From Ianthella basta (taxonomy: Eukaryota > Porifera > Demospongiae > Verongiida > Ianthellidae), in NCBI GenBank assembly GCA_964019415.1, contig OZ025888.1:1992045-2056044 (forward strand): a stretch of DNA of 64,000 bases, read 5' to 3'. Shown piece by piece: positions 11,901-61,700 of the stretch. Every line of letters starts with the position of its first letter. Position 1 is the stretch's first letter. The notes beneath the pieces were generated by a model. That model was given only the letters and a program-made list of their open reading frames with translations. It was not told the origin of the DNA and did not search any database. The position numbers and the translations under genes are program-made.

Positions 11901-14900
11901 ACTGCCTCTTTTGCAGTTAATGGCTATACACCATCAGGCTTTCAAGTGTTTGATGTCGCTAGCACTGGGTTCCGAGTTTCATGGGTGGCCCCAAATGATG
12001 GTATTCCTGCACAGTACAATTTGATGTATCGTGCAGTGGACTCACAGAATACAACTGTGAAGATGTTCAATGGTGCAATCCTGCCCAATCCTACCATTGG
12101 CAATCTGCTTCCTCAAACGACATACTCTGTACAAGTGGAAGCAGTGTTTAATCCAGCTCCACCACAGTCCAGCACCACAAATGAGTTTATTGTAACAACT
12201 TTACCAGGTACGTGTATGTTGTGCACTTACTGCTTCACTATTGGGACATGCAAATCCATGTGTACAGTAGCTGCGTGATTTCTTGTGCCCATTGCACAAT
12301 GCACAACTGTTCACATGTGCTACAGTACATGTTATCCTTAATATCACTTAGCGCACATTGCCCTCTTTTCACTCCATGTTTCGAGAGAGAGTGACTCGGT
12401 TAAAGAGCGAAGTGATATTAAGGATGTCATGTAGCACGTGCATAGTGTACTATCATACTATCAGCATTGAGCAAACTATGGATATCGTGCAGCTACGTAC
12501 ATGCTGTAGTACACCTTGGGACAGTGCATTGGCGTCTATCTATTCCTTAGCTACACTCCATTTGTGTGAAGCTGCATGCCACATCAACAAAATGGTGGCA
12601 CACTGTGAGATGTACAAGTGTGTGCATTTTGGTAGGACCAGGAGTTAGAGCAGGTGCAAGTGTATTGCATTAATGTCTCTTCAAAGTCTCTATGGGAAGT
12701 CAATATTCTACAGTTGTTTCCATACGTACATACACTTTTTCACATACAGTGTATGTACTTGCTACAGTTTCCTGGCTTTCATTGGCATATCTGTACTTGG
12801 TTTGCAAACCGTAGGCAACACTTTTAAGCTATCTCTCACTTGAGTGTATAGTACATTGTGGCTGTATGTGCATAGGTGAAACAAGCTCTGTACAGAAACT
12901 CCTGGAATCTTTCCTCCCTACTAGCTAAATACCTGCCCTTTGGGTGGGTTCCCAGCATAATTTTATTGTTTGAAATTTGAGTGTTGAACCAATGGAAACT
13001 GTCTAGTTGGGAGCATTCCATAGACTCACTCCGTGAAACTCTATGCGCACAGAATTTACTTATGTTAATCCATTTGTCTAAAAGAGTCCAGTGGCGAAGG
13101 CCCTACGTAACTACCTTAGGTCACCCCCCGTATTACCGTGATATACTCTTCCAAGTTTGGTGAAGAGTAGTAGAAAATTGAAGAAGGAGTTCACAGCAAA
13201 CACAATCTTTTCTCTATCTCTTAGATAGGGCGGCGACTGTAAAAGTGGCAAGAACTTGGATGGAATGACTTTAATCCACATTTTGGCTCGACCAGATTAC
13301 TCTCACTACACCTCTTCGTAGTCCTAACATGTTTTGTGAAGCTCCATCCAGAATTGAAGGAGTAATTCCTGAACATTGAAAAGTGTGTTACGTTAATTAT
13401 AATAAAATTGTGAATAGTGAAAATGGAGGAATGGGTCTGGGCTACATGAGACTGGCTACATACAGATGTTCATATTGTAGTAAAGAGCATTCATGCAATC
13501 TGGGGTATCCATGGTAATGTTGTGTATTTATGCCTCCTTCCCCATAGATGGACCTCTTGCCCTACAACTGTACCAGAACCAACTGTCATCCTTCGAACGT
13601 CCTGAAGATATTACTGCTTGTGGAACTGCTTTTACAGATGTAATGCGGAACACTCTGTTCTTTGGTGATTTTGGAGTTCAGAATGTGAATGGCAACCTGA
13701 CAAGTACGTGTACTGCACTAAGTCTTGTTGAATTGTTGCATTTTGTGATAATTGCAGTTCTCTCTACATGCAGGTTTCAGTTATAACTTGCAACTGAGGC
13801 AGATTTATTACACAACCACAAATAGCTCCATTTTCTCAATGTCATACTCTGTAAGAGAAGGCTCATTACCCCTTGTTGAAGTTGAACAGGAACAGAGGAT
13901 CCTGGATCGAAGTCAAGCTCTGCGCTCTCTGCAGTATGATTGGACCAGTGGCCGACTGTACTGGATTGAGGATGAGACTATGGTAGGACCCTGTAGCTTT
14001 TATACTGCAGTAGTCCATCTCCTTCTTTGCACCTGTACCTACCACACCCGCTCATCTTTCCTTGGGCCTCCCAATTCTCTGTCCATTTATTGTCTTCCAC
14101 TTGAATTTCCACCATGAAGCACATATTGGCACACAACTTTCGTGATCTGCTCCTATTTATACAGTATGTATTGCTATGTATACTGTAGTCTTCTACTGTA
14201 GCTATTGCATACACATTTTGTGATCTGCTCCTATTTATATAGTATGTATTGTATGTATACTATAGTCTCCTACTGTAGCTATTGCATACAAATTTTGTGA
14301 TCTGCCCCTATTTATACAGTATGTATTGCTATGTATACTATAGTCCATGATATTGTAGAAGCTCACAGTTGCGTTGATGATACACAGATACGAGATTCTT
14401 GAGCAAGACACAACTGATAATGATAAATCAATCAAAGCAGGACGTTTTGACCCAAAGGTCTTTGTCAACTGCGTACAGGATTTGATCAATTTATCATTAT
14501 TAGTTGTGTCTTGCTCAAGAATCTTGTATCAGTGTATAATCTAGTCTCCTACTGTAGCTTTTGCATACACATTTTGTATCAGCTCATATACATGTACGTA
14601 TACAGTATGTATAAATTGTGTATACTTTAGATTGCAACCAGTCAGGCAAATGGCAGTGGCATCCAGTCTGTTCTTGTTGCGGGTTCCGTTGTGGAAGACA
14701 TTCAATTGGACCCAGCACATGGGTTAGTGAAGGAAGGGAGGAACTAGTAAGAAAGGGATGATTGGTGGTCCATGCTGTGCAAGTATGGAACATGTGTGTG
14801 TTAGTACACAAGATTGGAAGCTTTGCTTTGGATGAATCATAGCCAACAGCAAGTTCTTTTGAGTGTAATGCTGATGTTTCAAGGTAATTCGTGTAGCTTT

Positions 14901-58700: not shown

Positions 58701-61700
58701 TTACCCCACCCCCGAGTAATTATGCACCTGAGAGTACGGCCCACACCCCATTCACATCAGAAGGACAGAGGGAAACAAAAGAGAAAAATATCTCTGGTCA
58801 CTGCCCAGTGTCTGCTCCACTCATCTGCCACCAGGAGGAAGACAGTGATAGATAGATAGATAGATAGATAGATGAATTATTTCAAACAGGAGTGCTGCAT
58901 CCACAAGAGTGGGTTTTCATGCAGGTCCTGAACAGTACAGATACAAGCATAGGTATATATACACACATAGGCAATTAAATAGCTAATAAATAATAGATAA
59001 ATAAACAATGAATTTCAGGGTCCAGATAAGTAAGACATAGCTATAGAGTTGAGTTACAGATTCAAAATTGCATGCTTAAAGGATTTCACACTTGATAATT
59101 TTCTAATACTTTGCGGTAGTTGATTGTACTGTAAGGCACCTTGGAATTCGAACGATTGTCTGTACATTTCTGTGCGAGGTTGCGGAAGGTGGAGTTTGTC
59201 GGCTCCTCTGGTGGATGAGTAAGTACACGAGTTCTTGACGAACTTTCCTGATAGATAACTGGGAGCCTGCTTGAGGACACACCGGTGGACCTGGCAGAGT
59301 GTTGCATTGTGTCGCCTCCTGTGGAGGGTGGTCCACCCAAGTTCGTCTCTGAGGGGGGCACTTGGTGTTCGTGGAGGCTTGTTCAGTACCACTCTCATTC
59401 CATAATTCTGTACTCTCTCCACACTTTGGGCGAGGTTGGAACTGCAGGGGTGCCAGATCACCTGGCAGTAGTCCACATACGGCAGGACTAGTGCGTTGTA
59501 CAGCATCCGTTTGGTCGGGAGGGGGAGGTAAGCACTGACTTGTCTTATGCTAGCAATTGCAGCTAGCATCCTTCTCCGCACTGCTCCTACATGGGACTTC
59601 CAACTCAGGTCGTGATCAATAGTTACTCCCAGATACTTGACAGATTCCTGCCGAGGGATGGTTGTCCCATTGACTTGGACCTTGATCTGTTCTGCCCGTG
59701 ACCTGGCAGCCCGCCTGCTTAGTACCATCATTAGGGTCTTGCTTACATTCATAGTTAGTTTGTTAGACACAATCCAGGTGGCAATGAGCTGGAGATCATC
59801 ATTAATGGCATGTGTCACACAATCAGGATCCTGGTTTGCATAATAGATGGTATTGATAAAGGGGGGATTACTTGAGCGTTAAACACGTGGTACACTTTTT
59901 TTACCAAAAGGCAAAACGTTTCGGCCCCAAAAGGGCCTTCTTCAGTTGCACAAGAGTACAAAAAACAGAACATGAACATGAACAGACCAGAACATGACAG
60001 ACATCTTTCTTGGACTCCCTCAGGTTCATTTTCACTGCATGACAGACAGAACATGGTTGTTTAGCTGAATTGGTGAAATAGGAGTTGAGCTGGTTCGCGA
60101 TCTCCCTGATTGATGTGAGAATACCAGAGCTGATCGTCGGCATATAGGTTGATGGTACAGCTGGTGACTACAGTAGGTAAACCATTCATGAATACCAAGA
60201 ATAGCAGTGGGCCAAGAATGGAACCTTGTGGTACCCCTCTTGAGACTGCGGCCCAATCAGAGTAAGCTCCATTTACCATGACTCTCTGCTGCCTGCCTGA
60301 GAGATAGTTTGAGAACCATTGGTGCTCTCCGTTCAAAATGCCATAGGCTGAAAGTTTGTCAAGGAGTAGGTTGTGATCGATAGAATCAAAGGCCTTACTC
60401 AGGTCAATCATTGCAGTTCTGACACATTCTCCACGGTCAAGCGATGCTCTCCAATCATCAACAGTCTTGAGTAGCAAGTCCTGGGTGCAATGGGCGGGAC
60501 GAAAGCCTGATTGACTGGGATGGAGCAAGGAGTTCTCTGTCAGGTAGGTGTAGAGCTGCTTGTGAACAAGAGACTCAAAGACTTTGGCTATGACTGGGAG
60601 AACAGAGATGGGTCTGAAGTCAGATGGCTGACATGCTACTGTACACTTGGGGACTGGTGTGACATTTGCCCTCTTCCACTCTTCTGGGATTTCACCACCA
60701 GCCAGGCTCTGGTTAAACATCTTAGCCATGCTCGGTGCAATGGCTTCAGCAACCATGCGTAGGAGACGAGCTGATACTCCATCCACTCCAGTTGATTTAT
60801 GCACATTCAACCCTTTTAAAGCAGCCAGGATGTCATCCTCTTCAAGAGGGTGGAAAGTGAATTCTGACTTGGCCTGGTGCAATGCAGGTGGTGTACAATG
60901 ATGGGCAGGTTGTTTAGCTGAATTGGTGAAATAGGAGTTGAGCTGGTTCGCGATCTCCCTGATTGATGTGAGAATACCAGAGCTGGTCTCTAGCTGGGTT
61001 ATGCCACTCTTCACTTTACGACCTAGGGCTCTGTTCAGCTCATCCCATAGTTTCTTAGGTTGCCTGGACGTGTTTTTACAGACTCTCTCAAAATGATCTT
61101 TCTTGGACTCCCTCAGGTTCATTTTCACTGCATTCCTCAATCTACGATAGGTCTCCCAGTCCTGTTCATCCCGTGTCTTCCTATACTTATTGCGATAGTA
61201 GTTCCGAGACTTCATCATCATACGGATGTCAGCAGAGATCCACTGGTGGCTGTGCTTTCTTGGCCTTATCCTGATCATAGGGGCATGTTTGTTTACAATC
61301 TTCATGAAGAGAGTCTTCCAATAATCCCATTTGTCATCCATAGAATCGAAAACATCCATGACTCCCCAGGGGGCCTCCTGCAGATCAGTTAGCAAGGTGT
61401 CCACATTGCACTTCTTAAAAGACCGAATCTCCTTAACAGGCTGTGTAGGTCTTCTAGTTCTCGCTGATCTAGATGCATAAATTAGCATATGGTCACTACC
61501 TGCTAGTGGGGTGACTCCAGAAGTGTAGCACATGGGAGCAGAAACAAAACAGAGGTCGATGAGAGTCTGTGACTGATTAGTCACCCTGGTAGGCTCGGAG
61601 ATGAGCTGAGAGAGTTGGTGTTCCTCCATAATCGCAGTGAGGTGCTTCGTGGTTGCATTTGGTGCCAGGATGTTGCAATTTAGGTCCCCCATTATCATCA

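Follow-up and report, generated by a model that had tools for sequence, protein, structure and literature searches.

Which element has scattered nine short motifs resembling hammerhead ribozymes over a single stretch of a sponge genome, and is it the ribozyme or merely an RNA fold that has been kept? The stretch comprises 64,000 nucleotides of Ianthella basta (assembly GCA_964019415.1, contig OZ025888.1, positions 1,992,045 to 2,056,044) and is referred to here as a whole as the window. The nine sites were recognized in an initial annotation made from the letters of the DNA. We find that they are almost certainly minimal type I hammerhead ribozymes located in the pseudo long terminal repeats (pLTRs) of several families of Penelope-like elements (PLEs), most of which are reduced to pieces that are truncated, solo, or inverted head to head. 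The window itself is ordinary in this respect, as it holds scattered ends of PLEs. Minimal loop-less type I hammerheads of PLEs are already in print, so the kind of finding is known; the parts that might be new are a near-fixed extra A next to the first core box and a clade of elements in which one core pair has been exchanged.

In the proposed fold the two arms of the motif would form helix I, the inner stem would form helix II and the conserved boxes would make up the hammerhead core. The hammerhead-like motifs of the window are real. A strict descriptor, requiring an intact core and at least 3 bp in each of helices I and II with the extra nucleotide optional, selects five sites (19127, 19616, 36106, 49457 and 59915) and none in 60 dinucleotide shuffles. 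If one core mismatch is tolerated, the result is unchanged for both the window and the shuffles. The string GAAACGTY occurs eight times in the window, whereas 100 shuffles contain it 1.19 times on average and at most 4 times; one of the eight matches, GAAACGTC at 28785, was rejected as a motif because no hammerhead surrounds it. A covariance model built from 32 copies, all from outside the window, recovers eight of the nine sites with E values from 1.1e-14 to 8.5e-6. These E values are rough figures, and the 32 rows were pre-selected by a filter requiring paired arms. The ninth site, on the minus strand at 21273, is a decayed piece for which the model gives only E 0.54 (positions 21280–21306), the best background match having E 1.1.

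All nine sites were also inspected directly. The coordinates first assigned to them hold to within a few bases, except that the motif placed at 36112–36138 in fact starts at 36106, with its arm beginning at 36102. The boxes CUGANGA and GAAA stand exactly and in the right order around a stem in five of the nine copies. The copies at 55134 and 14437, initially counted as having a CUGANGA-like first box, read UUGACAA, a double change in the core. Three of the nine copies are damaged: at 14437 GAAA has become AAAA, at 27633 both boxes are affected, and at 21273 the first box reads CTAACGA and the arms are unpaired. Helix III consists of ACGU only and has no loop in a single copy, as had been noted, and this self-complementary ACGU is found in eight of the nine copies. 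The claim that the arms differ and yet remain complementary needs a correction within the window. The copies at 19608, 55134, 14437 and 27633 all share the arms GCAG/CTGC and are therefore not independent evidence of covariation; such evidence comes from the genome-wide families.

The genome scan covered 209,087,449 bases in 96 contigs. The strict pattern CTGANGA-A-GRYY..RRYC-GAAACGTH is matched 1620 times and its reversed form not once. Helix II is not joined directly to CUGANGA, as in nearly all copies one A intervenes; this extra A, first seen in the copies of the window, is near-fixed genome-wide (A in 1620 copies, another letter in 10 and no letter in 3). Known hammerhead alignments permit one or two inserted nucleotides at the junction of box 1 and helix II, according to the portion of PMC10085705 available. 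Over ten families the 15 core letters are 86.8% alike, against 58.6 and 60.6% for the flanks, which equals the shuffled level.

At the level of these genome-wide families, the covariation of helix I and helix II through compensatory changes is real. Of 63 copies selected by their core only, 60 form a helix I of 3 bp or more. Among 16 distinct arm pairs, nine are complementary at every one of the four positions, whereas 5000 shuffles give 1.75 such pairs on average and never more than 7. In an alignment of 16 family rows, 97.2% of the cells are paired, compared with 69.8% after shuffling and 16.7–45.5% when the arms are slid.

The origin from Penelope elements suggested at the outset is borne out by protein-coding sequence. 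Five protein lineages with PLE-type reverse transcriptase (RT) and/or GIY-YIG homology bear the motif at their ends, together with PLE-type insertion ends. When the genome was searched for the GIY-YIG domain, 55 places were listed; 30 of them were examined as loci, and 28 of these match the 838-residue protein with RVT_1 and GIY-YIG domains that is encoded at locus L072. The motif is present at 23 of the 28 by the descriptor and at 24 if L056, where the model detects it, is included; these locus counts are not independent as several loci overlap or fall in one insertion. At L040 and L043, two GIY-YIG loci without PLE homology, the motif was not found. RT and GIY-YIG domains occur in one frame at L072 and L062, and the window itself contains no such frame. 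In the cases measured, the motif follows the protein frame on the same strand at a distance of about 100–210 bp, and this position 3' of RT and GIY-YIG frames identifies the motif-bearing sequences as terminal repeats of PLEs. L072 presents the order partial frame, motif, full 838-residue frame, motif, with both direct motifs on the strand of the frame and an inverted motif upstream; the first direct motif begins 31 nucleotides inside the mechanical start of the frame. Direct and inverted pLTRs and partial tandems are seen across L070–L073.

The lineages with the motif are A (L072, L055 and others), B (L041–L052 and others), C (L019–L023), D (L059–L064) and E (L079/L080). L079 and L080, separated by 2.3 kb, probably belong to a single insertion. 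Only two families of the window are tied to protein frames, namely that of 49454 (lineage C) and that of 55134 (lineage D). Relatives of the PLE frame number 693 at E <= 1e-10 among 8000 proteins scored, and their named sources include Anolis, starfish, sea urchin, coral, beetles and fish. The records are named reverse transcriptase or uncharacterized, and the PLE label derives from the domains and from PMC11167929.

The insertions themselves are also of PLE type. Copies of family C end in ..CCCTTTC or about 33 nucleotides beyond it, with a tail. In a survey by script of 14 sources, five have both ends visible with a target duplication of 11–12 bp, each with one tailed and one untailed end; two have both ends visible and no duplication was found, and seven have one end visible. 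The window, which is among these seven, was completed by eye and checked. Its left end is tailed and a 12 bp duplication is present on both sides, so that 49230–49543 is a complete insertion of 314 bp. Between its inverted and direct terminal repeats lie 153 bases (49300–49452) with zero mismatches to a source at 50216–50368, less than 1 kb away, and this segment is a recent local capture of host sequence. Rotifer Penelope elements have inverted pLTRs with a tail on one of them, 8–10 bp duplications and captured host genes, as described in the accessible part of PMC3846280. The insertions described here resemble them in the head-to-head repeats, the tail at one end and the host DNA between the repeats, and differ in the 11–12 bp duplications and the local capture of 153 bp.

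The insertion structure also bears on whether the copies could be retrozymes of the metazoan type, as had been suggested. Retrozymes of this type consist of short, tandemly repeated, non-autonomous units that carry type I hammerheads and are mobile in the form of small circles. Many copies here are short and lack a reading frame. Retrozymes too have type I hammerheads with a weak helix III, and PLEs are their suggested movers (PMC7229834 and PMC7761336, in the excerpts consulted). The repeats of retrozymes are, however, tandem, measure about 150–450 bp and have helices of canonical size with loop contacts according to the same excerpts, whereas our copies are solo or head-to-head with 11–12 bp duplications, and families A, B, C, D and E adjoin PLE protein frames. 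No short tandem array of the motif turned up, although no dedicated array search was made. The retrozyme suggestion is unsupported, and we regard it as scarcely plausible.

A number of points weigh against the assignment as PLE hammerheads. Rfam gives no hammerhead match in the window at the gathering level or up to E 10, and descriptor and model both failed to find the motif at four of the 28 PLE loci (L039, L057, L058 and L063). The 16 family rows were picked by hand and the 32-row alignment had passed the pairing filter; moreover, members of a family share descent, so copy counts are not counts of events. The ribozyme of the Anolis element cleaved only with protein present, its mutants remained capable of insertion and RNA-seq showed no ends at the cut site (PMC11167929), so that insertion has no need of cleavage there. 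Dimer folds of the copies examined give a long intermolecular duplex instead of a double hammerhead. In seven of the nine window copies the minimum-energy monomer is a hairpin in which GAC(G) of box 1 is paired with (C)GUC.

This last result raises the possibility of a plain structured hairpin, for example a landing site of the PLE protein on the RNA, in which helices I and II are stacked with a GACG/CGUC stem as a single imperfect hairpin and the likeness to a hammerhead core is secondary. The RNA region required for insertion of the Anolis element falls in the same stretch (PMC11167929). Both folds contain helices I and II, so the covariation of these helices does not discriminate between the folds. 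The pairs that belong to one fold only are more telling. The four hairpin-only pairs show no two-sided change, and two of them are often broken (in 11 and 7 of the 32 rows, and in 3 and 4 of the 16 family rows). The hammerhead-only pair C3–G8 is C–G in 12 of the 16 families and U–A in four and is broken in none, although three of the 32 rows of the pre-selected alignment break it. The U3–A8 families retain the C that would pair with G8 in the hairpin. Since the core pair is replaced as a pair and the pairs peculiar to the hairpin never are, the hammerhead is favoured, and a plain hairpin appears very improbable.

The hammerhead thus preferred occurs in two core states. With the same outer pattern, the genome contains 1620 copies with C3–G8, 340 with U3–A8, 44 with U3–G8 and 54 with C3–A8, and the reversed control gives 0 for each. 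By eye, the half-changed copies often resemble single-step decay of known families, partly at CpG sites where N7 is C. Two copies of the 19608 family, at L005 and L008, read CTGACAA, a half-way state in which only G8 has changed to A, at a CpG site. Helix II of the U3–A8 copies takes the forms GACC/GGTC, GGCC/GGCC and GGCT/AGCC in the first 100 of the 340 places. In a FastTree tree of 26 rows covering RT and endonuclease (EN) (18 loci and eight database proteins, 333 columns), the U3–A8 proteins form one clade with a support of 0.999. This monophyly points to a single exchange that has persisted since the split of lineages D and E. The proteins of D and E, the latter represented by one insertion only, share 61% amino-acid identity over 333 residues. 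D and E agree in all 15 core letters. Their likeness is 85% over the motif with its arms and 62% over the 60-base flanks; shuffled flanks give an average of about 58% when all family pairs are taken together.

A possible reading, which we advance tentatively, is that an old PLE clade swapped C3–G8 for U3–A8 once and kept it with all other core letters while its proteins diverged to 61% identity and helix II changed. If this is true, the catalytic pocket and not merely a hairpin is still under selection in PLEs, and RNA cleavage would matter to these elements in vivo, though the sole PLE studied in vitro inserts without it. An identical compensatory exchange is on record: several natural hammerheads have a covarying U3 and A8 in place of C3 and G8, and activity in vitro has been shown for pairs of this kind (PMC3088659, Perreault 2011, in the part accessible to us). 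Those examples are several and unspecified in that part of the text, whereas in our case U3–A8 is the hallmark of a PLE clade that numbers hundreds of copies. A literature search returned no description of U3–A8 for PLEs, but as it excluded Cervera 2014 and Lunse 2017 this does not establish absence.

The D–E comparison is equally relevant to the idea of a relic, namely a ribozyme inherited from active PLE ancestors that no longer cleaves or is no longer needed. Such a relic would agree with the insertion of the Anolis element in vitro without ribozyme activity (PMC11167929) and with the damage in three of the nine window copies. A core that is identical between D and E while the flanks are at background, and the low numbers of half-changed cores (44 and 54, compared with 340 and 1620), would not be maintained by long-term drift. 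We therefore consider a relic unlikely.

How a functional PLE hammerhead would most likely act can be outlined by analogy with other elements, from which cleavage, the position of the cut and the separation of units are taken over. A tandem pLTR–ORF–pLTR transcript (ORF, open reading frame) would be cut after GUC or GUU, and the cut would separate the element units. Helix III could be supplied by pairing of ACGU between two copies, which would then share it; alternatively, the fold may be stabilized by the element's own protein. In view of the dimer folds, support for the first idea comes from the ACGU palindrome and from published work. Lunse, Weinberg and Breaker reportedly described, to judge from a 2017 title, small hammerhead variants that are associated with PLEs and cleave as dimers. 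The self-complementary ACGU found here would fit the shared helix III of such variants.

According to the portions available of PMC6155905, PMC7761336 and PMC7229834, PLEs generally carry minimal type I hammerheads that lack a proper helix III. Ours are of the same kind: type I, with a very short loop-less helix III and no described loop contacts, positioned in pLTRs and present as thousands of scattered copies. No difference in kind is apparent from these texts, which provide later descriptions of the work of Cervera and de la Pena 2014. The template of the Anolis PLE PAc is laid out in the same way: it reads CUGAGGA, one extra U, a stem and GAAACGUC, and it cleaves with protein present (PMC11167929). 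The order of parts, the single extra nucleotide before helix II, the loop-less GAAACGUC and the overlap with the start of the ORF, as at L072, are the same in PAc/Poseidon, whereas the identity of the extra nucleotide differs, with U in that element and A in our copies. The proteins share 43% identity over the 315 RT/EN positions compared, if P0102 is, as we infer, the protein of PAc/Poseidon. In the part of PMC7761336 at hand, the activity and in vivo role of PLE hammerheads are called a mystery. Many PLE families together with a natural two-letter exchange in the core, all in one genome, offer ready-made variants for asking whether selection keeps cleavage or a mere RNA fold.

Features of the window, in coordinates of the 64,000-nucleotide stretch
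Feature	Position	Strand	Basis
Hammerhead motif, U3–A8 core, second box damaged (AAAA for GAAA)	14435..14474	-	model E 3.4e-11
Hammerhead motif, core intact, longer loop II, arms TTACT/AGTAA	19121..19166	+	model E 3.4e-9; strict descriptor
512 bp repeat piece with the 19610 motif near its 3' end	19188..19699	+	at least 75 genome-wide matches
Hammerhead motif with arms, core CUGACGA-A-GGCC-UUCG-GGCC-GAAACGUC intact	19610..19649	+	model E 1.1e-14; strict descriptor
Degenerate member of the 36100 family with remnants of the core and unpaired arms	21280..21306	-	E 0.54, not significant alone
Decayed motif related to that at 14435, damage in both boxes	27631..27670	-	model E 8.5e-6
46-nucleotide perfectly complementary arms (36043–36088, 36149–36194) flanking the 36100 motif	36043..36194	.	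sequence comparison
Hammerhead motif, core intact, arms ATGC/GCAT	36100..36140	+	model E 6.7e-6; strict descriptor
12 bp target-site duplication, left copy	49218..49229	.	flank comparison
Complete 314 bp PLE-type insertion	49230..49543	+	from left to right: tailed inverted terminal-repeat piece, captured host segment, hammerhead-bearing terminal repeat
Captured segment within the insertion	49300..49452	+	153/153 bases identical to 50216–50368
Hammerhead motif, core intact, PLE lineage C	49451..49495	+	model E 1.2e-11
12 bp target-site duplication, right copy	49544..49555	.	flank comparison
Hammerhead motif, U3–A8 core (UUGACAA), PLE lineage D	55132..55172	-	model E 4.4e-13
Hammerhead motif, core intact, within repeat piece 59852–59973 common to L030	59909..59951	-	model E 5.4e-10; descriptor

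The long arms around the 36100 motif are likely to be head-to-head inverted terminal repeats. An 81-nucleotide repeat that adjoins the degenerate copy at 21280–21306 shares 95% with 36007–36087. The 742-residue frame beside the 59911 copy was rejected as a PLE protein, since its Exo_endo_phos and RVT_1 domains indicate another type of endonuclease and RT. On the minus strand of region 59054–62723, this hammerhead piece is flanked by a frame resembling that of a long interspersed nuclear element (LINE; 60061–62289, Exo_endo_phos and RVT_1) and by a 254-residue frame without a Pfam match (59054–59818), which reads like a continuation of the former. The region is possibly one LINE split by the PLE piece.

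Copies of a repeat of about 180 bp at 10199–10387 and 22141–22324 are alike in blocks of 76–89 nucleotides at 86–90% identity; this repeat recurs in L053 and L060 and is, as far as seen, not part of a PLE. Local duplicates with 91–92% identity pair 49958–50257 with 52094–52393 and 50315–50614 with 52578–52877. Just past this duplicated stretch, a frame with an immunoglobulin (Ig) domain at 53589–54041 on the plus strand is perhaps a recently duplicated Ig-domain gene.

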